From positions 1 to 32,598 of the forward strand of contig JAFTRQ010000014.1 in assembly GCA_017462125.1 (NCBI GenBank): a stretch of 32,598 nt of DNA, in the 5' to 3' direction. The notes beneath the pieces were generated by a model, which was not told the DNA's origin, searched no databases, and saw only the letters and a list, made by a program, of their open reading frames with translations. The first letter of the stretch is position 1. Every line of letters begins with the position of its first letter. This document shows positions 6,105 through 29,646 of the stretch, in pieces. A program made the translations under genes and the position numbers. This DNA comes from Clostridia bacterium. GTDB taxonomy: Bacteria; Bacillota_A; Clostridia; Oscillospirales; CAG-272.

Positions 6105-6149
6105 GGTCTGTCCTTTTTGATACAACTCAAAAAGGACAGACCTTATTTT
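6105..6149. terminator. Strong bidirectional terminator
   Basis: A perfect 16-bp stem (6105-6120 with 6127-6142), a 6-nt loop and T-rich flanks on both strands. It sits at the end of the CrtC-like gene on the minus strand and ends the long AraC-linked cluster. It also follows the DUF421 remnant on the plus strand. Confidence 0.93.
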
Positions 6150-7266: not shown

Positions 7267-7316
7267 ATACCTGTCCTCTTTCCTTGTTAAAAAATGATTG
7301 GAGCCTTATTAACGGT

Positions 7317-7345
7317 ATTATAGCACGCTTTTATGAACCGAATAA
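7317..7345 (-). promoter_or_regulatory. Possible internal promoter for the CrtC-like gene
   Basis: On the minus strand a TATAAT (7322-7317) lies about 50 bp before the start, but the matching -35 (TTATTC after a 17-bp spacer) is weak. It may allow separate expression of the last gene. Confidence 0.4.
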
Positions 7346-7359
7346 TAAACGGAGGACAG

Positions 7360-8364: not shown

Positions 8365-8419
8365 TTTTCTGAGCTCCCTTTTGCTGAAAATGAGATGGAT
8401 TCGGATCGTTGACGGCGAT

Positions 8420-9175: not shown

Positions 9176-9207
9176 AGTCTTGATCGATCCTTTCGCCAAT
9201 AGCTTTG

Positions 9208-10470
9208 TTACAGTATCTCAAGCCCGAGCGCGTTGGCAACGTACGCAAGCTCCTGTGTCACGTCGCTGAAGACAAATATCTGATGGCAGCCCAACGCGGT
9301 TTTGATATATCTGTCGAAATCGTCGAATCTGACCTTCAGCTGTGTCCTGCAGCTGGGCTCGTAATCTCCGCAGATGCCAACGCATTTGCGGATCGTGATC
9401 TGGGACAGGTCATTTGAGATCCTGCAGGCGGTCATCTCCAAATTTTTGGGCAACTCGACCTGCGTGCTGACACCGATCCCGCTTTCGTGGTGGTTTCGAA
9501 GTATATATTCGCATTTTTCACCGTTGATAACGGTGGGAGCCGTACAATGCACGAAGTTGACCGTGCCGTCGGATTGAATATTGGGGTTTGCCATCCACAC
9601 GTTATCCTGCGCCAGCTGCTTCATAATCAGCATGGTGATCGCGCTGTCCATATCTCCCTCGCAGGAAACCACGTAGTCGGTATACGTGTTGATATAGCTG
9701 ACGCCAAGACAGGCGGTGGTGCCTGTCTTCAAAAGCTGAAAGCAAGCGATCGCCGCACCGCGGGCGTTGTATTTTTCTATCAGCTTGATCAGAGCGGCTT
9801 GCATCCTTGACGCGTTGGAAACGTCCGATGGCGTAGGCTCTGCCAAGCCGGCGGCATTCTCTGTCCATTGCTCCGCATAGCATTTGTCGTTCTGTAGGCT
9901 GTTATACAGATCAACAAGCTCGCTTTGCTCCACGTCCACGATTTCGATCCCAAGCTTTTTGCGGACAACGTCCCAATCCTTTACCGCGCTGATGACCCAA
10001 GGCTCGGTTTTCCCTATGGCAAGCAGCCTGCAGCCCCTCAACGATTCTATCGCGCCAAGCGCTCGCGTCCGCTTTTCAAGCTCCTCACGGCTGACGCACA
10101 GGTCTACGCTGTCGTGCTGACGCTTCAGCACAGCATACACGTCCATAACGGCGGGTGCCGCGTTGAGGATCAGCATTCTTTGGCTGACCTCGCCAAAGCT
10201 GTCCTTGATATATCCCGCGAGAAGCAGGATATGCCCAAAGTGACGGGCAGCCTCCAGAATTCTGGGCTGTACCGCACCCGACATCGGGATCGTGATCATC
10301 AGATCCGCCTTGTGACCGTCAAGTGCGTTTAAATCGAACGAGTCGTCAACAAGATATGCTTCCGAGCAAAGCTTGCTCAGCTCTGTCCTGACGTGCTCGA
10401 AGGCACCGTTCAACTCGTCTGTATCCGTCCAATATCTGCGTGCCGCAAAGCAGCATAAAATAACTTTCAC
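9208..10470 (-). CDS. L-fucose/L-arabinose isomerase family protein
   Basis: A 420-aa protein starting with GTG, with AGGAGA 7 nt upstream. The C-terminal half has the FucI/AraA-type core: CLGVSYINTYTDYVVSCEGD followed by an ITMLIMKQLA helix and NFVHCTAP. The CEGD acidic pair and the His in NFVHC fit the metal-binding site of this fold. The N-terminal half is an alpha/beta domain unlike that of the best-studied isomerases, so the substrate is unlikely to be plain fucose or arabinose. The neighbouring TIM-barrel isomerase, SDR and 2-hydroxyacid dehydrogenase support work on a polyhydroxylated compound. Confidence 0.75.
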   Translation of the reverse strand: MKVILCCFAARRYWTDTDELNGAFEHVRTELSKLCSEAYLVDDSFDLNALDGHKADLMITIPMSGAVQPRILEAARHFGHILLLAGYIKDSFGEVSQRMLILNAAPAVMDVYAVLKRQHDSVDLCVSREELEKRTRALGAIESLRGCRLLAIGKTEPWVISAVKDWDVVRKKLGIEIVDVEQSELVDLYNSLQNDKCYAEQWTENAAGLAEPTPSDVSNASRMQAALIKLIEKYNARGAAIACFQLLKTGTTACLGVSYINTYTDYVVSCEGDMDSAITMLIMKQLAQDNVWMANPNIQSDGTVNFVHCTAPTVINGEKCEYILRNHHESGIGVSTQVELPKNLEMTACRISNDLSQITIRKCVGICGDYEPSCRTQLKVRFDDFDRYIKTALGCHQIFVFSDVTQELAYVANALGLEIL

Positions 10471-10516
10471 ATCAGTTCTCCTTCGTATGATTCTCTCTTA
10501 TACAACCGATAAGGAT

Positions 10517-12307
10517 TTATTTTTCGGTTGCCGCGCGCTGTCTCGCCAGCAGGGTTTCAAACCAAAGCTCGGGATCCGGCATAGGAGAGACGGGCTCTAT
10601 ATACGACTTGGCACCCTGCGTCAGCGTGCGCGTTTTGCGTACTTTGCCATTGGTCTGATCGGGCATTCGGTTCACGAATGCTGAGCCGTGGGTGCCGATC
10701 TGCTCGGCTGAACAAAGCATCGCTGACAGCACCGAACGCTGTGTCAGGATCATATCGTACAGCTTGAATACCTCTGCCGTCTGAGATGCATTTTCGATAG
10801 AAATCCTTTCGAAAAAGCTGTCGCACCAAAGCTCTGTTTTGGCAAGCAAGGTTTTCATCGCGTCAATATTTCTGTCAAAATCCGCCGCGCGGCTCATCTC
10901 TGCTTGGAAATCCTCTCTGATCTGCAGCAGATCACAGCAACCGCGCTTGATGACGGGCATTTCGTAACGGGGCTCGGGACGCACAAGCGCCTGCCTTTTC
11001 GCAATATGCTCTGCCGCGCGCAGGCTACCCACCTGCGTGGAATTCAGCGCGCTGCCTCCGGGGCGGTACACGCCAAACGTGCCTGCCGCCTCTCCTGCCA
11101 CGTACAATCCGTTGACGCAGGATTGCCAATTTTCATCTACTGCCACGCCACCGTTGCAATGCTGTGCGCAAACCGCGATCTCAAGCCGCTCGCACCAAAG
11201 ATCGATGCCGTGCGACAGATAAAGCTCGATCGCGCCTGCGTTCATTTTTTTCAACCGTTCGATAGGCGTGCCAAACAGCGCGTCGGAGCGGCGAAGGTAT
11301 TCGTATGCTTCTTCGGGAAGCGTGTCAAATCCCTTTTCAAGCCCCTTGGGGTTTCGTGTAAAGTCAAGGAACACGCGGTTGCCGTTTTTGATCTCCTCGG
11401 CAACCAGAAGATCCACTCTTGACGACCCTGTTATCTTGCGCACGTCAAATGGCCACTGATATCCCTTGAGGAAGATGGCTCCCAAGGAGTCTGCTCCCAA
11501 TTTCTCATATAAAAATTCACGCTCCGTACCGTCCTTGTCCACCGAAATATATCGCGGCAAGACCTGCTGATAGGTTCCCGACAGATTCCATCTGAAGCCT
11601 GTGCTTGCGATGCCGTATTGCCACTCCTCCATATTGGAAAGCAATGCGCCCGCGTCGATGGCAAGACCTGTTGCGCCGTGCTGACTTTCGGGATAGACGG
11701 TATTTTTATATATTCCCGCAGGCCCGCCCGTACAGAGGATCACGTTCTGACAGGCAATTATACTGCATTCACCCGTAACGGTGGACACGCACGCAACTCC
11801 CGCAACGCACCCACCGTCGGTGAGTATTTTTATCACTCGCTGAAGATCAATGATCTCAATTCCCTTTTGCGACACCGATCTCTCAAGCGCCTCGGTCATA
11901 TATTTTGACGTAAGAGGGCCGCAGGATGTGGCGCGTGTTCGGGGATCGTGGTCGGTCTTATATCCCGCATATTCACCGAATTCGTTTGTGGGAAACGGAA
12001 CGCCGAGCTCCACAAGGCGCATAAAGCAACGCGTGGAATATGCCGCCTCGCAAAGCGCGTGCTCGCCCATCACGCCGCCGCCGGCATATAAGGTGTCCGC
12101 CAATTCTCTGACGCTGTCTCCGCCCGAGCCGCAAAGCGACAGCTTATAATAGGTCTGCTTGTCGCTTCCCGTATTGCGGGAGGTTCCCATCGTCCTGCCC
12201 TCTGTAAGAATGGCAATATCTCTGATTCCAAGATCATAGAGCTTGTCTGCCGCGTTAAAGCCTGCACAGCCCGTACCGATGATCAGAGTATGATATCTTT
12301 TTTTCAT
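10517..12307 (-). CDS. FAD-binding fumarate reductase/succinate dehydrogenase-type flavoprotein
   Basis: A 596-aa soluble flavoprotein. The FAD dinucleotide motif LIIGTGCAGFNAA is at residues 8-20, VILCTGGPAGIY is the second FAD-contact segment, and GLYVAGEAAGTFGVYRPGGS is the C-terminal FAD motif of the FrdA/SdhA/AprA group. A C-terminal helical domain (about residues 465-596) is present. No signal peptide, haem or FMN-binding domain is seen, unlike the extracellular flavocytochrome-type reductases. Its ATG overlaps the SDR stop codon by 4 bp (ATGA), so the two are translationally coupled. In context it probably adds or removes a carbon-carbon double bond of the pathway substrate; the electron partner is unknown. 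Confidence 0.85.
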   Translation of the reverse strand: MKKRYHTLIIGTGCAGFNAADKLYDLGIRDIAILTEGRTMGTSRNTGSDKQTYYKLSLCGSGGDSVRELADTLYAGGGVMGEHALCEAAYSTRCFMRLVELGVPFPTNEFGEYAGYKTDHDPRTRATSCGPLTSKYMTEALERSVSQKGIEIIDLQRVIKILTDGGCVAGVACVSTVTGECSIIACQNVILCTGGPAGIYKNTVYPESQHGATGLAIDAGALLSNMEEWQYGIASTGFRWNLSGTYQQVLPRYISVDKDGTEREFLYEKLGADSLGAIFLKGYQWPFDVRKITGSSRVDLLVAEEIKNGNRVFLDFTRNPKGLEKGFDTLPEEAYEYLRRSDALFGTPIERLKKMNAGAIELYLSHGIDLWCERLEIAVCAQHCNGGVAVDENWQSCVNGLYVAGEAAGTFGVYRPGGSALNSTQVGSLRAAEHIAKRQALVRPEPRYEMPVIKRGCCDLLQIREDFQAEMSRAADFDRNIDAMKTLLAKTELWCDSFFERISIENASQTAEVFKLYDMILTQRSVLSAMLCSAEQIGTHGSAFVNRMPDQTNGKVRKTRTLTQGAKSYIEPVSPMPDPELWFETLLARQRAATEK

Positions 12308-13035
12308 AGCTTTCTTATGTGCATGCCTCCGTCAAGAATAAAGGACTGTCCCGTAGCGAACCCAAAGGTTCCGTCGCAAAGCGCAACGACAGCCTTTGCG
12401 ATATCGTCGGGCATTCCCCAGCGTCCGAGAGGGATCAGACCGCCCTCGATCAGCCTGTCATACTTTTCCTTGACCGCCTCCGTCATACCGGTTGCGATGA
12501 TTCCGGGACAGATCTCGTTGACAATGATGCCCTCGCCCGCCAGCCTGTCGGCAAACAGCTTGGTGATCATGGAAACGCCTGCCTTGGAGATGCAATATTC
12601 TCCACGGCTTGTGGAGCTTGTGTATGCCGAGCAGGAGGAAATGTTGACGATCGCGCCGCCCTCCCCGTGCTTCAGCATCTCGTTTGCCACCGCTTGGGTC
12701 AGAAACAGGGTTCCCTTCGTATTGATCCCCATCACGTAATCGTAGCTTTCCTCTGTCATTTCCAGAATATCGCGGCGCACCTTGGGAGCAACGCCTGCTA
12801 CGTTGACAAGCGCGGAAATATTTCCGCGTGAAACCGCAGCCTCTACCAGCCTTGCCCGATCGGCGGCGGAGGAAATATCACCCGCGACGTAGGTAATATC
12901 CAAACCGTCAAAATCCGAAAGATCAACGTTCTCATGCCGTCCCATACCCACGACAGCATAGCCTTTTTGAGCAAGCATCAGCGCACTTGCTTTGCCGATG
13001 CCGCCAAGTATTCCCGTAACGATCGCAATTTTCAC
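12304..13035 (-). CDS. Short-chain dehydrogenase/reductase (FabG-like)
   Basis: A 243-aa classical SDR. The cofactor motif TGILGGIG is at residues 7-14, NVAG at about 78-81, the catalytic residues are Asn105, Ser134, Tyr147 and Lys151 (YCISK), and the C terminus has FATGQSFILDGG. It starts with GTG overlapping the TGA of the old yellow enzyme gene by 4 bp, and its own TGA overlaps the ATG of the FrdA-like gene, a tight three-gene block. It should interconvert an alcohol and a ketone on the pathway substrate with NAD(P). Annotation as a fatty-acid synthesis enzyme would be unsafe here, given the operon. Confidence 0.88.
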   Translation of the reverse strand: MKIAIVTGILGGIGKASALMLAQKGYAVVGMGRHENVDLSDFDGLDITYVAGDISSAADRARLVEAAVSRGNISALVNVAGVAPKVRRDILEMTEESYDYVMGINTKGTLFLTQAVANEMLKHGEGGAIVNISSCSAYTSSTSRGEYCISKAGVSMITKLFADRLAGEGIIVNEICPGIIATGMTEAVKEKYDRLIEGGLIPLGRWGMPDDIAKAVVALCDGTFGFATGQSFILDGGMHIRKL

Positions 13036-14228
13036 TTTTTGATCTCCTTGTAAAGATTTCTGTAGTATTCATGGAAGACCGCGCATCCCGAAACCCTCTT
13101 GTTTCGCATCAGCTCGGTGCATTTGGAGCAAGCAAGACAGCATTTCTTCGGATCGAAGGCTCCGTTTAAATAATCTTTATAAAACGTGGGGTAAGCCAGC
13201 CACATTCTTCCGTATCCCACAAGATCGCACACGCCCTCGCGCAACAGCTTATCAGATTGCTCCATCAGATCCTCTCTGTAGTAGGACATTCCCGAGCCGA
13301 CCACGGTCAGCGAGGGGAATCCTTCTTTAATGTGCTTCTCTACCGTAACGAATCGGGCAAGCCCCGCTTCCGCAGGCTCGGGAGCGACGTATCCGCCCTT
13401 TCTGTAGGGACGGTTGATATGGGGATTGTAATAAGGATTTCCGATGGTGACGTTCAGCATCTGAATCCCCTCCTCCACGAGTCGACCGAGCAGGAGGTCG
13501 GGCTCGGTGAAATCAAGCTCGTTATCCTCGGTGGTGCCGAATCCGTAGGGCTTGGGAACCATATCCGAAACGCTCAGGCGGGTAGTGAGAAGCATACTGT
13601 CGGGAATGACCGCCTTCACCGCCTTTACGCAATCAAGATACAGCCTTGCTCGGTTTTCAAAGCAACCGCCGTATCTTCCCTCGCGGGAGAATGCAGACAG
13701 CAGCTCTTGAAAGAGATAGCCGTGGCAGGATTTTACGTCCACTCCGTCAAAGCCCGCCTCGAGTGCAAGCTTGGCAGATTGGGCGTACTTTTCGGGAAGC
13801 GTGTCTAAATACTCATCGGAGACGATGCAATCGTCTGTAACAGCCCGCCTTTCCTCATAGAGCGGATGACGGTATGCGATCATGGGCTCGATGCTCTGTC
13901 TGCCCGAGTGGGTCAGCTGCAAAATAAAGACAGGCTCTGTTTCGCACTCCTCCTTGGCAAGTCTTCTCATTTTCTCCAAAAGACTTCTGAATTGCGGGAG
14001 ATTGTCTTCGGTAAGCATCATTTGTCTTGTGTTGGTTCGTCCCTCGGGACAAACGGCGGTTGCTTCAAACCAAATCATTCCCGCTCCGCTTTTTGCGGCT
14101 CGGGTATATTTCTCGACCGTCAGCTCACTTGGGGTGCCGTCCTCATAGCAGTCGCATCCCTCCATGGGCTGGAAAACCACGCGATTCGGAATCTCTTTTT
14201 TGCCTACGTGAATAGAAGAATTGATCAT
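13032..14228 (-). CDS. Old yellow enzyme family NADH:flavin oxidoreductase with Fe-S motif
   Basis: A 398-aa TIM-barrel FMN protein of the 2-enoate reductase type. NRVVFQPMEG, the active-site-region segment LQLTHSGRQS, GFDGVDVKSCHGYLFQELLS and GFPSLTVVGSG are recognisable. Near the C terminus Cys364, Cys367, Cys370 and Cys382 (C-x2-C-x2-C-x11-C) match the [4Fe-4S] site of dienoyl-CoA/2-enoate reductases, with one residue less between the second and third Cys than in FadH. The FAD/NAD domains of those larger enzymes are absent, so another protein must supply electrons. It is the first gene of the AraC-linked cluster, with AGAGAGG before the ATG. Likely role: reduction of an activated double bond. 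Confidence 0.87.
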   Translation of the reverse strand: MINSSIHVGKKEIPNRVVFQPMEGCDCYEDGTPSELTVEKYTRAAKSGAGMIWFEATAVCPEGRTNTRQMMLTEDNLPQFRSLLEKMRRLAKEECETEPVFILQLTHSGRQSIEPMIAYRHPLYEERRAVTDDCIVSDEYLDTLPEKYAQSAKLALEAGFDGVDVKSCHGYLFQELLSAFSREGRYGGCFENRARLYLDCVKAVKAVIPDSMLLTTRLSVSDMVPKPYGFGTTEDNELDFTEPDLLLGRLVEEGIQMLNVTIGNPYYNPHINRPYRKGGYVAPEPAEAGLARFVTVEKHIKEGFPSLTVVGSGMSYYREDLMEQSDKLLREGVCDLVGYGRMWLAYPTFYKDYLNGAFDPKKCCLACSKCTELMRNKRVSGCAVFHEYYRNLYKEIKK

Positions 14229-14361: not shown

Positions 14362-15132
14362 ATGAATGATAGCTTTCACACCGCAAGCTTTGCGTTTGAA
14401 TATCTGGAGAGCGAGATCGAAAACACCGTACTGTGGGAAAGCCATTGTCATTCGCAATACGAGCTGATCGCAGTGGTTGAGGGTCGTATCGGCATTATGA
14501 TCGAGGGGCGTAGCTATTCCCTGTCCGCAAGTCAGGCTGTGATCATTCCGCCACTCTCCTATCACACCGTTACCGCCAGCAAGAAGGGTGTTTATAAACG
14601 GGTGACCGTGCTGTTTGCCAGAGCGGCGATCCCTTCCGTTCTGGCAAGCCGCTTTACAAAGGACGGGTTTGTTACGCCGCTGTTTCGTTCCGCAAGGCTT
14701 GATGAGCTCAGAAAAATCTGTCAATCGGAGGATATCGAGCTGTATGCGCCTTTGGCGGAAAGCCTGATGATACAGACCCTGTATGAATGTATCGAGGCGG
14801 AGAGCGCGGGCATGATGACCGAAGTGGACGAGCTGTTGCATCAGATCATCTCATACGTGGACAGTCATCTTGGCGAAAAGATCAGGCTTGAGGATCTTGC
14901 CGTGCATACGGCTCGCTCGCAGTCGTCGATCTGCCATTTGTTCCGCGAGCAAATGAAAATATCCCCCAAGCAATACATCCTGCAAAAAAAGCTTGCCCTG
15001 GCGGCAACGCTGATCCGCGACGGAACACCGCCAACCGTTGCGGCAATGCGGATCGGGTACGACAATTACAGCGATTTTTATCGCATTTATCTGAAGCACG
15101 TTCAAAAAACGCCTTCCAAGGACAAAATATAG
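14362..15132 (+). CDS. AraC family transcriptional regulator
   Basis: A 256-aa regulator. ATG at 14362 is preferred over an upstream in-frame ATG at 14284 because AAGGGAG (14347-14353) precedes it and because the longer form would run through the promoter repeats. Residues 1 to about 150 form a cupin-like effector domain (SHCHSQYELIAVVEGRIGI). Residues about 160-256 form the double helix-turn-helix: IRLEDLAVHTARSQSSICHL and, second, TVAAMRIGYDNYSDFYRIY. It is divergent from the seven-gene cluster and most likely senses that pathway's substrate. The stop codon is TAG. Confidence 0.9.
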   Translation: MNDSFHTASFAFEYLESEIENTVLWESHCHSQYELIAVVEGRIGIMIEGRSYSLSASQAVIIPPLSYHTVTASKKGVYKRVTVLFARAAIPSVLASRFTKDGFVTPLFRSARLDELRKICQSEDIELYAPLAESLMIQTLYECIEAESAGMMTEVDELLHQIISYVDSHLGEKIRLEDLAVHTARSQSSICHLFREQMKISPKQYILQKKLALAATLIRDGTPPTVAAMRIGYDNYSDFYRIYLKHVQKTPSKDKI

Positions 15133-15199
15133 CAGTATTTTAAAATAAAAAAGAAAGTTAGCAGCTTTTATCAGTAAAGAATATCAGGAGGAACTCTGT

Positions 15200-15757
15200 A
15201 TGAGAAAAAATTTTGGCGCAAAGCCCATCCTTTATCCCCAACCGGTATTTATCATCGGCACTTACGACGAAAACGGTACGCCCGACGCGATGAATGCGGC
15301 TTGGGGCGGTATCAGCGAGGAGAATGAGATCTCGATCTGCATCAGCGCGGGACACAAGACCACGAAAAATATCCTTGCGCGCGGCGCGTTTACCGTCAGT
15401 ATGGCAACCATGGATCAAGTCGTCGCGTGCGATTACGTTGGTATCGTATCGGGAAACAGCGTACCCAATAAGCTTGAAAAGGCAGGCTGGCACACGGTAA
15501 AGAGCGAGTTTGTGGACGCCCCCTTGATCGCCGAGCTTCCGATGGCGGTGGAATGTAAGCTGATCGGCTACGATGAAAATTCCTGCCGTTTGGTTGGTGA
15601 GATCGTAAACGTCTGCGCGGACGAAAGCGTGCTGACCGACGGGAAGATCGACCCTGCAAAGCTTCGCCCGATCGTTTTTGACGGCGCGAATCACACCTAT
15701 CACGTGCTTGGCGAAAGGGTTGGAGACGCATTCCGTGACGGCTTGGCGCTCAAATAA
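15200..15757 (+). CDS. Flavin reductase family (FMN-binding split-barrel) protein
   Basis: A 185-aa protein of the flavin reductase-like fold: PQPVFIIGTYDENGTPDAMN and SICISAGHKTTKNI-type sequence (strand plus phosphate-binding turn), then GAFTVSMATMDQVVACDYVG and NKLEKAGW, a pattern seen in anaerobe members that bind FMN. AGGAGG (15186-15191) lies 8 nt before the ATG. It follows araC by 67 bp in the same direction, so it may be read through from araC and serve the nearby flavin enzymes, but a direct link is not shown. Other members act in general redox homeostasis or oxygen defence. Confidence 0.85.
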   Translation: MRKNFGAKPILYPQPVFIIGTYDENGTPDAMNAAWGGISEENEISICISAGHKTTKNILARGAFTVSMATMDQVVACDYVGIVSGNSVPNKLEKAGWHTVKSEFVDAPLIAELPMAVECKLIGYDENSCRLVGEIVNVCADESVLTDGKIDPAKLRPIVFDGANHTYHVLGERVGDAFRDGLALK

Positions 15758-15837: not shown

Positions 15838-16293
15838 TTACTCGGTATCCTCATCGCTCTTCAGCGAGTCCAATACCTTATACAGTAAAGAATACAGCTG
15901 CGTTGCCTCCTGCGGATCCAGCTTGATACAGCTTGCCAACGCTGTCGGGATCGTCGATGCCTTTTCCTTCAGACTCTCGCCCGCATCCGTGATTTCAACC
16001 GTAAGCACTCTTTCATCGAAAGTGGAGCGGTGTCGGTTCACAAGTCCCTTGGCTTCGAGACTTTTGAGCACCGGCGTTAAGGTTCCCGAATCAAGATAAA
16101 GCTTTTTTCCGAGCTCCTTCACGTTGATTTTTTTCTCTTCCCAAAAAACCATCATTACAATATATTGCGTATATGTCAGTCCGATCTCATCAAGGAGAGG
16201 ACGGTATTGCTTGATGACCTGGCGGGATGCGGCATAAAGCGGGAAGCACAGTTGGTTTTTCAGCTTTAAAACGTCGTAATCAGATTGATCCAT
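15838..16293 (-). CDS. ohrR: OhrR-type MarR family organic peroxide sensor
   Basis: A 151-aa winged-helix repressor. KLKNQLCFPLYAASR near the N terminus is almost the same as Bacillus OhrR, with the reactive Cys at position 16, and KLYLDSGTLTPVLKSLEAKG is the family's DNA-recognition region. ATG at 16293 is chosen over 16320 because GGAGGTG lies just before it. OhrR is inactivated when organic peroxides oxidise the Cys, which frees its target genes. The classical target ohrA is not here; a glutathione peroxidase is directly upstream and carries an OhrR-like box. A second Cys, in SCIKLDP, could allow a disulfide mechanism, but that is speculative. Confidence 0.88.
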   Translation of the reverse strand: MDQSDYDVLKLKNQLCFPLYAASRQVIKQYRPLLDEIGLTYTQYIVMMVFWEEKKINVKELGKKLYLDSGTLTPVLKSLEAKGLVNRHRSTFDERVLTVEITDAGESLKEKASTIPTALASCIKLDPQEATQLYSLLYKVLDSLKSDEDTE

Positions 16294-16318
16294 AGGCACC
16301 TCCGAAATGTTTGGTATC

Positions 16319-16347
16319 ATTATAACACAATTTTACCGAATAATCAA
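16319..16347 (-). promoter_or_regulatory. Promoter of the ohrR-like gene
   Basis: TTGATT (16347-16342), a 17-bp spacer and a perfect TATAAT (16324-16319) lie about 26 bp before the start codon. AATTGTG next to the -10 resembles half an OhrR site, so weak autoregulation is possible. Confidence 0.75.
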
Positions 16348-16401
16348 GAGATTCCGAAATATTAACTGACAAATCAAGCTGCTCGGAGTGCTGTTGACCC
16401 G

Positions 16402-16944
16402 TTACAGAGCGGCTTTTACCGCGGAGGCAACGTCCTTCATAGGAACGGTCGGCTCAAAGCGCGCAATGATATTACCGGCTCTGTCCACAAGGATCTTGGT
16501 GAAGTTCCACTTGATAGCACCGTTATTTTTGTAATCCTTATCCATTTTTTTGACAACGCCCTTCATAACCATTGCCATCGGACCCTTACCAAACCCGTCA
16601 AACTCTGTGTTTTCGGCGATCCATTTGTAGAGCGGGATCGCGTTCTCTCCAATGACGTCTACCTTTGAAAACTGCGGAAAGGTGATTCCGAAGCGACCCG
16701 TACAGAAGGAATGGATCTCCTCATCGTTGCCGGGGGCTTGCTCTCCGAATTGATTGCAGGGGAAATCAAGAATTTCCAATCCGTCCGCCTTGTGCGCATC
16801 GTACAGCGCCTGCAGCTCGTCGTAATGCGGAGTAAAGCCGCATCCTGTCGCCGTATTCACGATCAGTAAGACCTTTCCTTGATAATCGGACAGTGAAACC
16901 TCGCTTCCATCCCGTGCCATAACCTTGAAATCATAAATACTCAT
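16402..16944 (-). CDS. Glutathione peroxidase-like thiol peroxidase
   Basis: A 180-aa GPx-family protein. ATG at 16944 is chosen over 17019 because GGAGGT lies 6 nt upstream and the family starts here (MSIYDFKVMARDG). The peroxidatic residue is Cys35 in NTATGCGFTPHY, encoded by TGC, so it is a cysteine and not a selenocysteine enzyme. Gln of FPCNQFGEQAPG and Trp of IKWNFTKIL complete the usual Cys-Gln-Trp site. No signal peptide. Most bacterial enzymes of this kind use thioredoxin instead of glutathione and reduce hydrogen and organic peroxides. Its promoter carries an OhrR-like operator, giving a sensor-effector pair with the next gene. Confidence 0.92.
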   Translation of the reverse strand: MSIYDFKVMARDGSEVSLSDYQGKVLLIVNTATGCGFTPHYDELQALYDAHKADGLEILDFPCNQFGEQAPGNDEEIHSFCTGRFGITFPQFSKVDVIGENAIPLYKWIAENTEFDGFGKGPMAMVMKGVVKKMDKDYKNNGAIKWNFTKILVDRAGNIIARFEPTVPMKDVASAVKAAL

Positions 16945-16966
16945 AACATACCTCCATAATAATAGT

Positions 16967-17019
16967 GTACAATTAAATTGAGCACAATTAATTATAACAT
17001 TTGCATAAAGGCTTGTCAA
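16967..17019 (-). promoter_or_regulatory. Peroxidase promoter with OhrR-like operator
   Basis: Consensus promoter on the minus strand: TTGACA (17019-17014), 17 bp, TATAAT (16996-16991). Immediately downstream, over the transcription start, is the palindrome CAATTAAATTG (16970-16980) within GTACAATTAAATTGAG, which matches the Bacillus OhrR operator TACAATT-A-AATTGTA except at one end. A second CAATTAATT lies at about 16985. Binding there would block transcription until OhrR is oxidised. Confidence 0.82.
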
Positions 17020-17078: not shown

Positions 17079-17783
17079 TCACTTAACAGTTTTTTTCTTT
17101 GCATCCGAAACGGCCTTGACGATCATCGAAAAAGCAAGGAGACAGAGCGCGGGATAATAGGTTCCCATACAAGCGTGGTCTGTCCAGCTCCAAAGACCGA
17201 TAAACCAATCAAAAACCAACATCAGATCAGAAAAGAAGAACAGCGCGCTGGCTGCGACGATGATCCCCGTTACAGCACTTCTTTCTCTCAAAAAATTACC
17301 TGCGGCCTTGCCGAGCATTGTGGAAATGATCAATGCATACACGATGCAAACGATACGGAAGATCGGTACGTCAAAGGTCAGGAGCGGCGAGAAGATCAGA
17401 AAGCCTGCGCCGCCGAGGAACAGAACACCGCTGATCAGATAGTCGACAGGTCTCATTTTCTGCATCAGACAATACGCGACAGCAAAGCAAACGTGACCGA
17501 TTGCAAAGGTGGCCGCGCCGATGATAAAATCATAGCCGATGAGATAATCGCCCAAAAACGCAAGAACAAGACCTGCTGCCATAGCGATATGAAATTTGCC
17601 GTCCGACAGCTTCGTTTTCAGCACGTAGACCAGATTGATCAATCCCAGCAATGCAAACGCTCCGCTGCAGATACATTTGAGCGTGAAGTCAAAGCCGTTG
17701 CTTTGATAGAAATAGTTCAGTACGAGAATGACGGTGATAAAGGCTAAATTAATTGCCAACATAATTTTTTGTGACGTTTTCAT
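17079..17783 (-). CDS. YhhN family membrane protein (lysoplasmalogenase-like)
   Basis: A 234-aa protein with about eight membrane segments. LAFLGDYLIG, SALFFFSDLMLVF and CMGTYYPALCLLAFS are the conserved polar-in-membrane motifs of YhhN proteins (GD, SD and YY-containing segments), which form the catalytic site of TMEM86B-type lysoplasmalogenases. That activity splits the vinyl-ether bond of lysoplasmalogen to give a fatty aldehyde and a glycerophospho compound. Start is 2 bp after the aldehyde dehydrogenase stop, so co-translation with an aldehyde-oxidising enzyme is likely. Not all bacterial YhhN proteins have been tested, so the activity is inferred from family and context. Confidence 0.8.
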   Translation of the reverse strand: MKTSQKIMLAINLAFITVILVLNYFYQSNGFDFTLKCICSGAFALLGLINLVYVLKTKLSDGKFHIAMAAGLVLAFLGDYLIGYDFIIGAATFAIGHVCFAVAYCLMQKMRPVDYLISGVLFLGGAGFLIFSPLLTFDVPIFRIVCIVYALIISTMLGKAAGNFLRERSAVTGIIVAASALFFFSDLMLVFDWFIGLWSWTDHACMGTYYPALCLLAFSMIVKAVSDAKKKTVK

Positions 17784-17785
17784 AT

Positions 17786-19168
17786 TTACCTCAAGAATAT
17801 ATGCAGAAGCTTTTCATACAGCTTGCTTCGATACGGCTGATAGCGCATAGGAAGATCAAGCCAGGTCTTTTTATCTACGATGGATTTGGTGTGCGAGAAG
17901 GCATCAAAGCCGTCTTTTCCGTGGTATGCGCCCATACCGCTCTCTCCAACGCCGCCAAAGCCCATAGCGCTGGTGGCAAGATGGATGACCACGTCGTTGA
18001 TACAGCCGCCGCCGTAGGACAGCTCGGTGGTGACGCGCTTGACGTGCTTTTTGTCCTTGGTGAAGAGATAAAGCGCCAACGGCTTATCCTCGGCCTTCAG
18101 CTCGTCGATCACGGTGTCGAAGTCATCAAAGGTGAGGATCGGCATGATCGGGCCGAAGATCTCCTCGCCCATAACCGCATCCGCACGGGTGACGTTGTCC
18201 ATCACGGTGGGCGCAATTTGGCAGGCTTCGGGGCTTGCTTCGCCGCCTATTACTACCTTTTTTTCGTCGATCAAACCGCAAAGCCTTGTAAAGTGCTTTT
18301 CGTTTATGATCTTGCCATAATTTTTGTTTTGCAAGGGGTTCTCGCCGTATTGCTTTTTGATCTCGGCGCAGACAGCCTTTATAAAATCATCCTTGACAGA
18401 CCTTTCGCAGAGAACGTAGTCGGGGGCAACGCAGGTTTGACCGCAGTTGAGATACTTTCCGAATACGATGCGCTTTGCGGCAAGAGCAATATTGGCGCTT
18501 TTGTCCACGATGCAGGGGCTTTTTCCTCCAAGCTCAAGAACGGCGGGAGTCAGATGCTCTGCGGTGCGGCGAAGCACCTCCTTGCCAACCGATTGACTTC
18601 CGGTGAAGAATACGAAATCGAATTTCTGATCAAGCAGTGCGGTGTTCTCCGCTCTTCCGCCGGTTACGACCGCTACGTACTCGGGGTCGAAGCATTCCTC
18701 TACGATCTTTTTTACGATCTCGCTTGTGGCGGGCGAGTAGGCGCTGGGCTTGACGATTGCAGTATTGCCTGCGCTGATGGCGTCTGCCAAAGGATCAAGC
18801 GTCAGCAGGAAGGGATAATTCCACGGGCTCATAATGAGCGTGTTTCCGTAAGGCACGGGCTGCTTAAAGCTGTGAGAATGGAACTGCGCCAGCGGTGTGG
18901 GGACGGTCTTTCTCTTCGCGAAGCGTCTTGTGTGCTTGATCATATAGCTGATCTCGGTCAGCACAAGTCCGCTTTCGCACATAAAGCCCTCGTAATGGCT
19001 TTTTCCAAGGTCTGCGGTCAACGCATCATTGATCTCGTTTTGATATTTTTTGACGGTTCTGTAAAGCTTTTTTAATTGCTCCACTCTGAATTTTACAGGG
19101 ATAGTCGCGCCGCTTCTGTAGAACCTTCTCTGCTTCTCAAGCAGATTCTGTATTTCGAGATTTGTCAT
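17786..19168 (-). CDS. Class 3 (ALDH3-type) aldehyde dehydrogenase
   Basis: A 460-aa enzyme, the length typical of ALDH3 fatty aldehyde dehydrogenases. Asn117 in SPWNYPF is the oxyanion Asn, GSQSVGKEV around residue 190 is the cofactor loop, Glu212 in LELGGKSP is the general base and Cys246 in NCGQTCVAPDY is the nucleophile. MGEEIFGPIMP and the C-terminal SGMGAYHGKDGFDAFSH-type segment are also class-3 features. The C terminus (YRSKLYEKLLHIFLR) is amphipathic and may touch the membrane, as in eukaryotic FALDH. Its place between a DegV lipid-binding protein and a lysoplasmalogenase-like protein points to long-chain aldehydes as substrate. Confidence 0.92.
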   Translation of the reverse strand: MTNLEIQNLLEKQRRFYRSGATIPVKFRVEQLKKLYRTVKKYQNEINDALTADLGKSHYEGFMCESGLVLTEISYMIKHTRRFAKRKTVPTPLAQFHSHSFKQPVPYGNTLIMSPWNYPFLLTLDPLADAISAGNTAIVKPSAYSPATSEIVKKIVEECFDPEYVAVVTGGRAENTALLDQKFDFVFFTGSQSVGKEVLRRTAEHLTPAVLELGGKSPCIVDKSANIALAAKRIVFGKYLNCGQTCVAPDYVLCERSVKDDFIKAVCAEIKKQYGENPLQNKNYGKIINEKHFTRLCGLIDEKKVVIGGEASPEACQIAPTVMDNVTRADAVMGEEIFGPIMPILTFDDFDTVIDELKAEDKPLALYLFTKDKKHVKRVTTELSYGGGCINDVVIHLATSAMGFGGVGESGMGAYHGKDGFDAFSHTKSIVDKKTWLDLPMRYQPYRSKLYEKLLHIFLR

Positions 19169-19184
19169 ATCCTTTCACCGCCTA

Positions 19185-20024
19185 TCATTCTGCTTTTTCG
19201 AAGCCTACGAGCACGCCGCCCTTTTCCGCATAAAAGCTGCAAAGCCCCTTGAGCTTGTGTATTTCGATTGACGCATCGGGAAATTTGGAGAGGATCAGCT
19301 CCTTAAGGCGCAACGCTGCCTCTTCGTTCAGACAATGCCCGATGCTGATCTTGCCCGACCGAAAGCCCTCTGCCTCAAGATCGCTGACAAGGGTCTCAAG
19401 AGAATTCTTTTCCCCTCTGCATTTGTGCTTGGGCTCAAGCGTTCCTTCACTGCTGGCTTTGCCAACGATGCATATGCCTGCGATTCCCACAAGCTTCGCA
19501 ACGATGGGAGAAACTCTGCCGTTGTTGGCAAAGGTCTTCAGGGATTTCAGCATAAACACAAGCCCTGTTCTTTTCAGATAATCCGTGATGATGTCGCAGA
19601 TCTCCTCATAGGTCTTCCCGCTTGCAATGCATTCCTCCAGCTTCTCGATTATAAGTGTCAATTCCGGGCCTGCCGAAAGCGTATCGATGACGAAAACCCG
19701 CCTTCCCTCATTCTCGGCTTCATAGATCTGCTTTGCGGAGCAGGCAGAGTTATAGCTTCCCGACAAGCCGCTTGTAATGGTGACGCAGAACACGTCGTCG
19801 GCATTTCCAAAGGCCTCAAGCCAATCGCTTGTATTGGGACAGGAGGATTTGGATTTACCCTTGTATTGATCCATAAAATCCACCATTCCGTTAACGTCCA
19901 GGGCTTCATTGTCAACAAATTCTTTTTCTGCGGTGATAATCTTCATCGGCGCATACGCAAAAGCGGTATGCTCTAAGGCAAACAGATCGCAAGAAGTGTC
20001 TGCAACAATTTTAACGGTTCTCAT
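19185..20024 (-). CDS. DegV family protein (fatty-acid-binding, FakB-like)
   Basis: A 279-aa DegV protein. VADTSCDL at the N terminus, SSCPNTSDW where the family has its TSQPS-like loop, ITSGLSGSYNSA and VIDTLSAGPE are typical two-domain DegV motifs that hold a fatty-acid carboxylate. FakB proteins hand bound fatty acids to the kinase FakA for phosphorylation and entry into phospholipid; no fakA gene lies in the window. The ATG overlaps the TGA of the alcohol dehydrogenase gene (ATGA). Placed between two aldehyde/alcohol enzymes, it may capture fatty acids made from aldehydes. Confidence 0.88.
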   Translation of the reverse strand: MRTVKIVADTSCDLFALEHTAFAYAPMKIITAEKEFVDNEALDVNGMVDFMDQYKGKSKSSCPNTSDWLEAFGNADDVFCVTITSGLSGSYNSACSAKQIYEAENEGRRVFVIDTLSAGPELTLIIEKLEECIASGKTYEEICDIITDYLKRTGLVFMLKSLKTFANNGRVSPIVAKLVGIAGICIVGKASSEGTLEPKHKCRGEKNSLETLVSDLEAEGFRSGKISIGHCLNEEAALRLKELILSKFPDASIEIHKLKGLCSFYAEKGGVLVGFEKAE

Positions 20025-21226
20025 TGGAGTCCTCCTACCTTGTAATAAAAGCCTTCCAGCTCTTTTCTTGTCATCAGCACAGGCACGGGATAAAGCGGAT
20101 TCGCTTCCTTTTCCGCATGTCTTGCCATCTCGGAAATATCTTCCGACTTGATTCCCGCAATGGTGTCGGGAATATTCATTTTTGTATTCAATGCTTTGAT
20201 CGCATTTATAAATTTCACAGCGCCGGCTTCATAGCTGTCCTCCTCGGTGCATACGCCTGCCGCTATACCGAGGCGATGCAGCTTCTTATATACAGGCTTA
20301 CCGTATGCTTCAAGAACGTAAGGCATAATGACCGCGTTGGCAAGCCCGTGAGGCGTGCCGTATCTGCCACCCAAGGAATGCGCAATGGCGTGGACGTAAC
20401 CGACGTAGGATTTTGAAAAGGCGATTCCGGCCTTGTATGCAGCAAGCAGCATGCGCTCGCGTGCTTGGTGGTCGTGCCCGTCAGCATAAGCCTTTTCTAC
20501 GTTCTCGAATACAAGGCTTGTGGCTTCAAGGGCAAGTCTTCTCGTTTCCCTTGTGGTGGAGCGGCCGATATAAGCCTCTACTGCGTGTGTTAACGCGTCG
20601 ATTCCCGTGGTGGAGGTCAGATGCGACGGTAGCGTATAGGTGAAGGTGGCGTCCAGAACCGCATAATGCGGGATCAGCGGGAAGCTCATCAAGGCATATT
20701 TGTGGTGTGTCGAGGTATCGGTAATGACTGCCGCAAGCGTTGTTTCGCTTCCCGTTCCCGCTGTGGTAGGAATGGCGATCAACGTGGGAAGTCTGCGAAG
20801 CACGCGCAAAATTCCGCCCATTTTGCCCACCGTTTTCTTCGGATATGCCACGCGCGCACCAACAGCCTTGGCGCAATCCATTGCCGAACCGCCGCCAACA
20901 GCGAACAAGGTGTCACAGCTTTGCTCGTGATAAAGCTTCAGAGCCTCTTCCACGTTATCGACGGTGGGATTGGGCTGTGTTTTGTCGTAAACCGAGTAGC
21001 GCACGCCGAGGTTTTTCAGCACGTCTTCAAGGATCGTCAGCAATCCGTTTTTTACAATGCCCGCATCGGTGACGACAAGAATCGAATGACAGCTTTCTTT
21101 TTCAAATACACGGTCAAGCTGTGCGCAGGAGGGGATCACCTGCGGCTCGCGGTAAGGGAGAATTGGCAACGCCGCGCGAAATGCGGTCTGAAAGACGCGG
21201 CAGGCCAGCTTTTTCAGTATAAACAT
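20021..21226 (-). CDS. Iron-containing (group III) alcohol dehydrogenase
   Basis: A 401-aa enzyme of the Fe-ADH superfamily. GGGSAMDCAKA at about residues 111-121 binds the dinucleotide phosphate and IPTTAGTGSE follows. The metal ligands fit Asp210 and His214 (GIDALTHAVEAY), His279 and His293 (YVHAIAHSLGG, GTPHG), with the spacing known from FucO. The first 30 residues are hydrophobic and basic, an unusual N-terminal extension. Starts 12 bp after the MarR gene and overlaps the DegV gene, so it is in the same operon. It probably reduces an aldehyde to an alcohol with NAD(P)H; in this context long-chain aldehydes are a good guess. Confidence 0.9.
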   Translation of the reverse strand: MFILKKLACRVFQTAFRAALPILPYREPQVIPSCAQLDRVFEKESCHSILVVTDAGIVKNGLLTILEDVLKNLGVRYSVYDKTQPNPTVDNVEEALKLYHEQSCDTLFAVGGGSAMDCAKAVGARVAYPKKTVGKMGGILRVLRRLPTLIAIPTTAGTGSETTLAAVITDTSTHHKYALMSFPLIPHYAVLDATFTYTLPSHLTSTTGIDALTHAVEAYIGRSTTRETRRLALEATSLVFENVEKAYADGHDHQARERMLLAAYKAGIAFSKSYVGYVHAIAHSLGGRYGTPHGLANAVIMPYVLEAYGKPVYKKLHRLGIAAGVCTEEDSYEAGAVKFINAIKALNTKMNIPDTIAGIKSEDISEMARHAEKEANPLYPVPVLMTRKELEGFYYKVGGLQ

Positions 21227-21238
21227 AGAGATTTCTTT

Positions 21239-21691
21239 TTATTCCTTTTCGTCAAGGCGTTTTACAATGGCTTCGAGACTGTTCGATATAATGCTCAGAC
21301 AGCGATAAAACTCTATACGTTCCTGTTCTGTCAGTCCAATGCTGATCTCATCGAGCACGCGATCGATCTTATCGGCGATCTTTTTGCCGACCTCCTCACC
21401 CTTCTCTGTAAGGACGAGGGGGCTTTTATATCTTTTGGCATATTTGGATTGACAGGTGAGATATCCGTTGCTCTCTAAATAATCCAGCGCGCGCGAAATT
21501 GTGGCCTTATCCTCTTCGCATCGCTCGCAAAGGTCGGTGGCTGTCAAGCCGTCCGTGGAATAAAGGTAATACAGGCAAGAGACGTGCACACTGCGCAGAT
21601 CGTATTCTGCCATTTCCTGATTTTTGATTTTTCGGATGCTTCGGCTGATCTTGGCGTTCAGAACCGTGAAGGTTTCGAATCTTTCATTCAT
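21239..21691 (-). CDS. MarR family transcriptional regulator
   Basis: A 150-aa winged-helix protein. LTATDLCERCEEDKATISRA is the helix-turn-helix, followed by DYLESNGYLTCQ and the wing RYKSPLVLTEKG. ATG at 21691 is preferred to 21739 because CGGAGA precedes it and family similarity starts at MNERFE. It is the first gene of its operon, just behind a promoter framed by two matching palindromes, so it is expected to repress itself and the four metabolic genes. The ligand could be a fatty acid, acyl-CoA or aldehyde, by analogy with lipid-responsive MarR proteins such as FabT; this is inference. Confidence 0.88.
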   Translation of the reverse strand: MNERFETFTVLNAKISRSIRKIKNQEMAEYDLRSVHVSCLYYLYSTDGLTATDLCERCEEDKATISRALDYLESNGYLTCQSKYAKRYKSPLVLTEKGEEVGKKIADKIDRVLDEISIGLTEQERIEFYRCLSIISNSLEAIVKRLDEKE

Positions 21692-21797
21692 ATAAGTCTC
21701 CGTTCTGCCGCTATGGGGATCTCCTGCTTTGCGGCACAAGTAGCTGTCGAAAATTTAGTCTGTCAGACGGGAATGCTACAGGATTAGTCCTGCGGGC

Positions 21798-21856
21798 TTG
21801 TTGACAAGTCAACAAATCTATTGCATTATACCACAAACTTGTTGAAATGTCAACAG
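21798..21856 (-). promoter_or_regulatory. MarR operon promoter bracketed by two palindromic operators
   Basis: Perfect promoter on the minus strand: TTGACA (21853-21848), 17 bp, TATAAT (21830-21825). Site 2, TGTTGA-AATG-TCAACA (21840-21855), covers the -35. Site 1, TGTTGA-CAAG-TCAACA (21799-21814, extended to 8-bp arms at 21798-21815), lies just past the -10 over the transcription start. The sites start 41 bp apart, about four helical turns. This layout suits repression by the MarR protein encoded next. Confidence 0.85.
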
Positions 21857-23778: not shown

Positions 23779-26700
23779 TCAATTCTCTTCGGGTTCGAGA
23801 ATCGTAAGATAACCCGATTTGGTTGTGATGTTGTAGAGATAAGTCACGTCGTTTCCGTTCTTATCAAAAACTCGCACGTTGCTCGGATCAAGCTTGTTTT
23901 CCACAACTCCGGGAGAATCGATATATCCTTGGGGATTAGCCTTCAGCGTATGACCGCTTACCAAGGAGCCTTGAGAGACCGTGACCTGGCTATTGGTCAA
24001 CGGTGTACCGTCGTCGAACTTGGTCTGAGAAGCCGAGCTGACCTCGATGAGACGCGGGTCGATCCTGATCGGTACGTATGATGTGCTGGTATTCTCGAAG
24101 GTATCGAAGATCATAACGAAATCAGCCGTGACGTCGATGCCGTTCTGATAAACCTTATAGCTTGCGAACTGATCAAGGTTCGCGTTGATGTATGCCAAGG
24201 TGAACGCTCCGGTATGAGTCATACTGATGTTCAGATCCAGCTCAAGCTTGACGCCATCCGGAATCTCAATGATCTCATAGTCCTCATTCTCAAAGGCGAG
24301 AGGTGTACCGTCGTAATACTTCTGAAGCTGATATAAGTATACGCGAATGAACTTCTGTTGGCCCGAAAATACTTGCAGAATACCGGGATTGTACAGAATG
24401 TTGTATTGATTCGTGACATCGATGCCCATGGGATCGTAAAGCGTAAAGCTTTCGATATAGCTGTAGCTTTGTCCGGGATAAAGCTGTTCACCGTAAATGC
24501 TTACGCTGTAGGTGTATCCCTGCTCAAGCAGAGCGCTGAGCACGTTGTCCGCGTCAACCTTGTTTTCGGGGTAAAGATACTTACCGTCATAGTTCTTGAA
24601 GCAGTAGGAGGGGGTGAGCGTAATGATTTCTCTGGTATCCTCGGAGCTGTCACTGCCTGTGACCTCGATCTGGATCCAGCCTACACCGTCGACGTAGACC
24701 TCAACCCATGCGTGACCGGGGGTTTTGATATCCACAAAGGTATCCTTTTTAGTTTCTACCATAAAGCCCTCGACGTATCTTGCGGGAATACCCATTGTTC
24801 GGTACAGCAGAGTTGCCGCTGTAGCGTAATGAATACAGATACCCTCTTTATACTGATCCAAGAAGGCAATTACTCGATTGCTTTCAAGATCCAGATTCGG
24901 ATTATAGTTCAGATTGTAGACAGCCGCGGTCTGCATATATTTTGCTGCCTTCAGAATAGAAGTGGGATCGGAACGGGAGAAGCCCTGCTCATCAATGATC
25001 TTTTGCAGATAAGCTCTTGTTTCATCGTCTACGTACAGATAATTATCATAAACGAACTGTCTGTACTCCGCTTCATATTCCGTATACGCTCCGAGATTGC
25101 CGCTGAGATATTCAAAGCCGTTTTTATTATTCGGGATCGAATAATAGGACATCAGGAAATCGGAGTTGATTTGGCTGTAATCAACGTCGCTTGACGGCTT
25201 TGCATAATTACCGTCCAGACCCATATAGTACGGGAGCATCGGGATCAACAGCTCCTTGACCTCTACGAAATTGATGTTTCCTTGACCGTACAGCAACGAC
25301 AGCGAGGTCAGATAATTGTAGCTGAGACCTCCGGGAAGCGTTGCGCCATAGTCTGCCGCCACTCCCCACGCGCGACCGTCGAAATCGCCATAGCTGTGCA
25401 TACGCAGGTAAACGTATCCGTTACGGTCGTTTTTGATCTTACCCACCGTCATCTCGGTGTCTGTAGGCGAAACGACTATCAGTATGCCGGGCGAGTAGGT
25501 AACGTTGCAATTCTTCGTTACGTCCTTTCCGTCGGGATCGTACAGCTTAAAGCGTGTGATCGTGCTTTCGCCTATTCCCGGGAACGTCTGCTCTCCGGAG
25601 ACCTCGACCTCGTAGGTATATCCCTGCTCCACAAGCGCGTTCAATGCATCGCCCATAATAATATTTCCGTTGGGCTTCAAAGGCATTCCGTCATAGATCT
25701 TGAATTGAGGAACGGGCATGATCTCAAACTCGCCCAATTCCAAGAGCTCATCACTGTCGCTGCCGCCGTTACCGCTGCCGCTACCGCCGCCTCCACTACA
25801 GTTTCCGTCACATACGCAATCGCCCTGACACTCGCCGGAGTTGCCGCTACCGCCGCCGTCACCTCCCGTGACCTCGACCTGGATCCAGCCCACACCGTCG
25901 ATGTAGACCTCAACCCATGCGTGTCCGGGGGTCATAATGTCGACGAAGGTATCCTTTTCTGTCTCTACCATGAAGCCCTCAACGTATCTTGCGGGTATTC
26001 CCATGGTTCGGTACAGCAGAGTTGCCGCAGTAGCATAATGGACGCATTTACCTTCCTTGTACTTATCCAGGAAGGCGATGACCTGGTTCTCCTCTACGTC
26101 GAGACGGAGGTCGTAGTTAAGATTGTACTTGGCGGCATTCTGAATATACGATGCCGCTCTGAGAATGGAGGTAGGATCGTCACGAGAGAATCCCTGCTCC
26201 TTTATGATTCCCTGCAGATATGTGCTTGTTTCGTCATCCACGTACAGGTAGTTATTATATACAAACTCTCTGTACTCCTGCTCATAGGGTGCATACTCTT
26301 CCAAATAGCCGCTGAGATAAGTAAAGCCGTTTTCGCTATCGGGAATCAGATAATAGGACATCGTGAAATCCGACTCAACGCTTCCGTAGACCGTGTCGCC
26401 GGAGGGCATCGTGTAATTGCCTTCCGTACCCATATAATATGGGATCATAGGAATCTCAAGCGCTCTGATCTCTACCGAATGAGCAGGTGCTCCATAGCCG
26501 ATCAGCGCGAAGGTGGTCAGATAGTTGTAGCTGAGACCGCCGGGGAGCGTTTTTCCGTATTCGGGCGCAGGACTCCATGCGCGACCGTTGAAATCACCGT
26601 AGTTGTATTGACGTAGATAAACGGTAGCGCTTCGGTCGTTTTTAATCTCACCGACCTTTACGGGAATCGACTCGGTTTTCTGCTCGATGACCTCCAGCGT

Positions 26701-29622: not shown

Positions 29623-29646
29623 AATGATTGATACCTTTGATTTTGG

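Follow-up and report, generated by a model that had tools for sequence, protein, structure and literature searches.

An apparently self-regulated Fe-ADH/ALDH operon with exchangeable lipid genes in a Clostridia bacterium: a possible route for long-chain aldehyde disposal and acyl-chain salvage

What does an anaerobic bacterium gain from placing a MarR-type regulator, an alcohol dehydrogenase, an aldehyde dehydrogenase, a DegV-family protein and a YhhN-family membrane protein in one row of genes? This question is raised by positions 17079-21856 of contig JAFTRQ010000014.1 (Clostridia bacterium, assembly GCA_017462125.1), of which we analysed a stretch of 32,598 nucleotides, here called the window. 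The original prediction read the row as an operon centred on plasmalogens, in which YhhN would release a fatty aldehyde for the other enzymes to process. We lean, with modest confidence, towards a MarR-autorepressed operon for the disposal of long-chain aldehydes and the salvage of their acyl chains, in which a lysoplasmalogenase would be an optional source of aldehyde.

Our gene calls returned the five minus-strand genes as they had been described, all intact and with ATG starts. They encode a MarR-family regulator (150 aa, 21239-21691; PF12802/PF01047 above cut-off, MarR_2 32.7 bits), an iron-dependent alcohol dehydrogenase (Fe-ADH, 401 aa, 20021-21226; Fe-ADH Pfam 147 bits), a DegV-family, FakB3-like putative fatty-acid-binding subunit (279 aa, 19185-20024; PF02645 163.6 bits), an ALDH3-type aldehyde dehydrogenase (ALDH, 460 aa, 17786-19168; Aldedh 294 bits), which is non-acylating by family, and a YhhN-family membrane protein of the lysoplasmalogenase family (234 aa, 17079-17783; PF07947 80.3 vs a cut-off of 25.6 bits). 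The junctions reported earlier, 12 bp, a 4-bp overlap (ATGA), 16 bp and 2 bp, were reproduced, and each of the five family assignments lies above its own Pfam cut-off. The five genes look like one transcription unit.

The unit is preceded by a promoter on the minus strand (21825-21853), TTGACA-17-TATAAT, which had been called perfect and indeed matches the consensus at 12/12 positions, with an extended -10 TG. Overlooked in the original prediction were two operator-like TTGTTGAnnnnTCAACAA palindromes on this promoter. Palindrome 1, CTGTTGACATTTCAACAA (21839-21856, minus strand), overlaps the -35 box, and palindrome 2, TTGTTGACTTGTCAACAA (21798-21815, minus strand), lies just downstream of the -10 box at a distance of 41 bp from the first; both positions are kept in relatives. 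In the whole window these two are the sole matches at up to two mismatches (chance mean 0.20), and two or more matches occurred in 1 of 100 shuffles.

To obtain relatives, we used the ALDH to scan a collection of genome contigs described as covering 84,980 species genomes; it matched at least 596 stretches, at least 587 of them encoding a relative, and the best 80 loci were kept. Going by the record titles, most of these loci come from animal-gut bins of Clostridia, Lachnospiraceae and Oscillospiraceae, three from isolates (L046, L060, L078) and a few from bins titled for other phyla (e.g. L029, L037, L041, L048, L058), for which transfers or mis-binning are possible. Genes were called by codon scoring, and as L060 lacks an ALDH gene call, gene-chain counts cover 79 of the 80 loci. 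Because contig ends cut many loci, the counts of partner genes are lower bounds.

The conserved core of these loci is the pair of Fe-ADH and ALDH3-type ALDH. An ADH gene is located upstream of the ALDH or fused to it in 48 of the 80 loci, directly in 47 (five of which are fusions) and with the DegV gene in between in L030; L001 and L009 show short ADH pieces only. In the fusions, which are single frames, the Fe-ADH part is N-terminal and the ALDH3-type part C-terminal (L033:8765-11368, L047:8765-11374, L054:8801-11377, L063:4937-7528, L064:8759-11377). Conservation of all five families together, which had been proposed as a check, thus holds in part: the ADH-ALDH core is widespread, whereas the complete five-gene order was found in one other locus, L030, with the same genes in the same order, so that the arrangement is not unique to the window genome. 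On a tree of the ALDHs (84 rows, quick method, SH-aLRT support only, state labels set by hand), the fewest changes amount to at least 10 for the presence of YhhN, at least 10 for DegV and 2 for the fusion; since 35 of the 81 forks are open, gain and loss are indistinguishable on this tree.

The palindromes recur in part of the loci. For 25 of the 80, a palindrome with up to two mismatches is found no more than 3.6 kb upstream of the ALDH, and 18 of these loci have a pair. Only six other sites are present in the 80 loci, which amount to 1.24 Mb. Such palindromes head the ALDH chain even where the MarR is merely 26-37% identical or where no MarR was called in the chain (L002, L006, L008, L021, L026, L031, L046). 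The regulator gene itself keeps its place: the 79 loci yielded 22 MarR genes, 21 of which sit upstream of the ALDH in the same gene chain. The exact motif is present in 9 of 13 whole genomes and in seven of these is confined to the ALDH operon (G002, G005, G006 and G034 have no match); an extra motif pair at a contig end of G129, where the last 80 bases equal the L011 locus, was counted as that same locus. G008 contains a single exact motif, which falls within a gene called as coding. In G097 (locus L113) the exact motif precedes the first gene of an OYE-aconitase X operon, a same-type MarR (61% identical), and a YhhN gene is convergent to this operon. A wide MarR regulon was considered as well, and the scan for exact matches in the 13 genomes gave no sign of one. 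As judged from their arrangement in the DNA, the sites have the pattern of a local autorepressor, which would bind here and repress its own operon. The best NCBIfam match of the window MarR is BilQ, far below the cut-off, and the likeness to the BilQ/BilR bilirubin reductase locus is limited to the MarR and OYE families, the window operon being without an OYE. Two cysteines of the MarR, C55 and C58 (CERC), are retained in 19 and 21 of 24 rows, respectively, and possibly serve redox or metal sensing.

Exchangeable partners join this core: DegV, YhhN, PlsC-type acyltransferases, C45 hydrolases and a thioesterase. The 79 loci yielded 10 DegV genes, every one of them within the ALDH chain. They represent at least two subfamilies, which differ in their side relative to the ALDH: FakB3-like proteins are encoded upstream (L006, L014, L016, L022, L030) and FakB1-like ones downstream (L012, typed by NCBIfam score; L038, L044, L068, typed by alignment), and L054 has a DegV gene upstream. 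Eleven of the 12 YhhN genes found in the 79 loci are at exactly +1 of the ALDH on the same strand; YhhN directly follows the ALDH in 11 of the 80 loci (L001-L005, L014, L030, L031, L039, L045, L055; L005 is cut by the contig end). Chains without YhhN or a FakB3-like DegV, as well as L006 beside that DegV, contain other lipid genes, namely a PlsC-type acyltransferase between DegV and ALDH (L006), C45 acyltransferases/hydrolases of cluster c7 (L008, L011, L026, L040, L057; L011 and L057 were scanned) and a YbgC/FadM-type thioesterase (L052). That acyl-chain proteins repeatedly join the ADH-ALDH core is our main argument for a long-chain aldehyde as the substrate. Chance neighbourhood was rejected as an explanation for DegV (9 of 10 in 186 operon slots of 962 gene places, p ~3e-6) and for YhhN (11 of 12 at +1 of the ALDH, p ~7e-12). 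These p values are too small, because the rows share descent and the genes counted here were also the main source of the DegV and YhhN profiles. In L001 (2564-5757), genes for a glycosyltransferase of family 8, a PlsC and a CrtO-like acyltransferase occupy the place of ADH and DegV, and a 28-codon ADH piece precedes the ALDH.

The best solved relatives of the ALDH are 6k0z (449 bits), AldH of S. aureus, and 4qgk (398 bits), human FALDH (ALDH3A2), followed by dimeric NADP-preferring and class 3 ALDHs (380-387 bits). The ALDH3 assignment of the original prediction is therefore borne out by the nearest solved relatives, with the human fatty aldehyde dehydrogenase (FALDH) in second place. The operon ALDH resembles these enzymes in family, length and catalytic Cys and Glu, which are presumably C246 and E212, both kept in at least 98% of 84 rows, and differs from them in its pairing with an Fe-ADH. 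The fusions resemble AdhE in joining ALDH and Fe-ADH in one protein (~840-870 aa). In AdhE the ALDH comes first and is of the acylating type, whereas in the five fusions the ADH comes first and the ALDH is of the ALDH3 type and not acylating. The best solved relative of the Fe-ADH is alcohol dehydrogenase 2 (3owo), and its D210, H214, H279 and H293, candidate metal ligands by our assignment from the spacing in FucO, are invariant in 44 rows. It has a conserved N-terminal segment that ends with LPYR.P, in which R10, Q13, A19, P21, L23-R26 and P28 are invariant in the same number of rows. Both this segment and the C-terminal tail of the ALDH look amphipathic and would suit membrane-bound substrates.

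The DegV protein is closest to the solved structures 3fdj/5uxy (E 1.2e-70), which are named only as DegV family, and then to FakB3 of S. pneumoniae (6cng, E 4.5e-64). The closest functionally named relative is thus a subunit of a fatty acid kinase, in agreement with the FakB-like character assigned earlier; against the NCBIfam FakB1 equivalog the protein reaches 56 bits where 350 are needed. According to excerpts of a published study, FakB3 of S. pneumoniae serves the uptake of polyunsaturated fatty acids (PMC7773995). Unlike in the known FakAB system, the window DegV resides in an aldehyde operon. Its kinase partner would be FakA; FakA-like genes were found in 40 of 50 relative genomes (those of the loci L001-L049 and L055, all relatives of the window, for which FakA and PlsA-like genes were counted), including all eight genomes whose locus bears a DegV gene.

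The YhhN protein resembles the lysoplasmalogenases of the YhhN/TMEM86 family (L. pneumophila YhhN, M. tuberculosis Rv1401, human TMEM86A/B) in its PF07947 domain and its eight helices, which an AlphaFold model supports with a mean pLDDT of 93.9. Seven residues, K36, G78, D79, H97, S185, D186 and Y209, are invariant in 31 rows and repeat the K, G-D, H, S-D, Y order of TMEM86. In the excerpted text of a study of TMEM86A, K43, G81, D82, H104, G182, S189, D190 and Y213 are proposed as catalytic (PMC11994398); seven of these eight have counterparts in the window protein when mapped by order and spacing rather than by alignment, and A178 stands at the place of G182. According to the same excerpts, the TMEM86A positions at which a change reduced activity to below 10% do not include G182, and changing the mapped residues of TMEM86A/B lowers activity, except for the glycine of the G-D pair, where alanine is tolerated (PMC11994398). 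The described lysoplasmalogenases differ in context: the window YhhN gene lies 2 bp behind an ALDH gene under one MarR, and the word "operon" is absent from the main text of PMC9052158. In a quick tree with some long branches (27 rows of at least 180 aa, thus excluding e.g. the cut L005; L092 is labelled "other" though behind an ALDH piece), the ALDH-linked YhhNs cluster with few neighbours, apart from most YhhNs of related genomes.

Taken as one system, the parts suggest the following course of events. The MarR protein would sit on both palindromes flanking the -10 box and keep the operon off until released by a signal, either a lipid or an aldehyde. YhhN, whose family activity is known elsewhere, would cleave lysoplasmalogen, from the cell's own or from ingested vinyl-ether lipids, to a fatty aldehyde, which the ALDH3-type enzyme would oxidise with NAD(P)+ to a fatty acid and the Fe-ADH would reduce to a fatty alcohol, or the alcohol would be oxidised. 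Adjacent or fused, ADH and ALDH could dismute the aldehyde at no net redox cost. The FakB3-like DegV would bind the fatty acid and present it for phosphorylation by FakA and entry into phospholipid. Around ADH-ALDH, the commonest core, the source (YhhN, C45 hydrolase, thioesterase) and the sink (FakB3-like, FakB1-like, PlsC acyltransferase) would be swapped. As a tentative extension, which may well not hold, we propose that anaerobic Firmicutes have a modular operon for recycling acyl chains, which combines a twin-operator MarR, a redox-neutral ADH+ALDH3 dismutase and exchangeable sources and acceptors.

Several observations weigh against aldehyde disposal with acyl-chain salvage. Among the named NCBIfam models, the ALDH scores best against benzaldehyde dehydrogenase and the Fe-ADH against lactaldehyde reductase, in each case below the cut-off, and the ALDH3 and Fe-ADH families accept many substrates. 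The co-occurrence of DegV-bearing loci with FakA is not significant (p=0.18). Partners were not seen beside the ALDH in many loci: YhhN in 69 of 80, DegV in 70 and ADH in 32 (two with short ADH pieces). The MarR type and operator of locus L113 stand before OYE and aconitase X genes in a genome without an ALDH match, which the aldehyde story leaves unexplained. Further, the operon contains no phospholipase to form lysoplasmalogen, only 3 of 64 YhhN copies in a broader sample adjoin an ALDH, and YhhN shows no significant association with plasmalogen synthesis genes in two genome sets, the trend in the second being slightly negative (see below for both).

Part of this evidence would also be expected if the operon were a general defence against aldehydes and electrophiles from diet, lipid peroxidation or fermentation, with YhhN and DegV as accessories and plasmalogen irrelevant. 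Most loci with ADH-ALDH are without YhhN, the named NCBIfam neighbours point the same way, as do the mostly conserved MarR cysteines, and an OYE-type enoate reductase accompanies the ALDH or YhhN in L024, L025, L127 and L113. Also in line with a defence, the next unit in the window, at 15838-17019 on the minus strand, encodes a glutathione peroxidase-type protein (GPx) and an OhrR-like MarR; its GPx gene starts 134 bp after YhhN. None of the other loci showed this unit among the five genes flanking the ALDH on each side, and because it also has its own promoter (17019-16991, minus strand, 12/12 consensus match), we rejected its genes as members of the operon. A defence function further leaves aside that acyl-chain proteins recur (two FakB types, PlsC, C45 hydrolase, thioesterase) and that FALDH is the second-best solved relative of the ALDH; we consider it unlikely, though not strongly so. 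As a separate observation, the OYE-type oxidoreductase together with a two-part aconitase X adjoins the ALDH or YhhN at L113:6627-10895 (-), L127:8726-12534 (+), L024:1-2797 (+; OYE cut by the contig start) and L025:9239-13038 (+), with 86-91% identity among the four loci; the best NCBIfam match of the L127 OYE is bilirubin reductase, far below the cut-off.

How far does plasmalogen enter the favoured reading of aldehyde disposal and acyl-chain salvage? The original prediction placed it at the centre, a place taken instead by the ADH-ALDH pair, and expected YhhN to co-occur with plasmalogen synthesis. PlsA-like (PF09989) genes are present in 37 of the 50 relative genomes and in 10 of the 11 with YhhN after the ALDH (G006, the sole exception, also has no FakA match); compared with 27 of 39 elsewhere, this excess is not significant (p=0.25). 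In a second set, 116 relatives of genome G001, PlsA-like genes were found in 11 of 20 YhhN carriers vs 67 of 96 non-carriers (p=0.20), and YhhN adjoins the ALDH in five (G001, G030, G034, G048, G077). An order sample of 345 genomes from a larger group, with ALDH3-type hits counted at 37% identity or more, yielded 64 copies of YhhN and 71 such hits, which occur together in 15 genomes and are adjacent in three (G001, G077, G202). These counts come from genomes of unstated completeness. From the non-significant excess of PlsA-like genes and the few adjacencies of YhhN and ALDH we conclude that YhhN is a true partner, though in a minority of cases, and that plasmalogen is at most one input; a link to plasmalogen is no more than plausible.

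The YhhN protein might instead act on another lysolipid or amphiphile in the salvage of host or dietary lipids, for instance N-acyl amines where a C45 hydrolase replaces it. C45 hydrolases or a thioesterase occupy its place in other loci, 9 of the 20 YhhN genomes of the second set have no PlsA-like match, and in the excerpted part of PMC9052158 M. tuberculosis is described as having a lysoplasmalogenase and no plasmalogens. The same excerpts, however, describe the human, M. tuberculosis and L. pneumophila proteins of the YhhN family as lysoplasmalogenases of similar properties (PMC9052158), and the window YhhN appears to keep most of the residues that TMEM86A/B need for full activity, so that we regard another substrate as improbable.

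A substrate of the vinyl-ether type could be made by the anaerobic plasmalogen synthase PlsA/PlsR, which is encoded outside the operon. The inspected PlsA-like genes (1019+449 aa in G001, the 449-aa frame being without a Pfam match, and 1412 aa in G004) are close in size to the plsA-plsR pair and the one-gene plsA, reported at 4.2-4.3 kb in the excerpted text of PMC12838417. These genes, common in the relatives, would also suit the opposite direction, in which the operon supplies fatty aldehyde or alcohol for the synthesis or remodelling of ether lipids or plasmalogens and YhhN trims the excess; excerpts of a review mention older feeding work in which long-chain aldehydes rather than alcohols entered plasmalogen synthesis (PMC9702350). 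The same excerpts state that PlsA/PlsR form the vinyl ether by reducing an acyl ester of the diacyl lipid (PMC9702350), and free aldehyde would therefore not be needed. Since the ALDH is of the non-acylating ALDH3 type, oxidation is expected, and the neighbouring FakB fits a fatty acid as the product; a synthetic role is highly improbable.

The rest of the window contains further gene groups. A minus-strand run at 6148-14228, which looks like a catabolic operon, encodes an OYE, an SDR, a FAD_binding_2 protein, a 420-aa protein without Pfam match, a TIM-barrel protein, a 2-hydroxyacid dehydrogenase and an AsqO/Diels-Alderase-like protein. Divergent from it, genes for an AraC regulator and a flavin reductase lie at 14362-15757 on the plus strand. 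At 23779-32358 (minus strand) a 1947-aa repeat protein, with two transglutaminase-like stretches recognised in its translation, is followed by a 903-aa Transglut_core protein.

Among the open-licence papers listed on YhhN/lysoplasmalogenase, plasmalogen, FakB and fatty aldehyde dehydrogenase, none describes such an operon in its title or abstract opening. As far as we have seen, the parts belong to known families and the operon is a new arrangement of them. In the literature surveyed, breakdown and recycling of plasmalogens in anaerobes are scarcely described; a review on plasmalogens in bacteria, published in 2022, has no occurrence of "degradation", "turnover", "catabol-" or "lysoplasmalogenase" in its main text (PMC9702350). 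A gene of the lysoplasmalogenase family directly behind genes for a fatty-aldehyde-type dehydrogenase and a FakB-type protein offers a concrete, testable pathway. The twin palindromes could be used as a reporter for the signal that the cell senses, and for the exchangeable partner genes substrates would be predictable from the operon. If the proposal is true, the YhhN-bearing form would be the first dedicated bacterial route that returns the vinyl-ether chain of plasmalogens to phospholipid.

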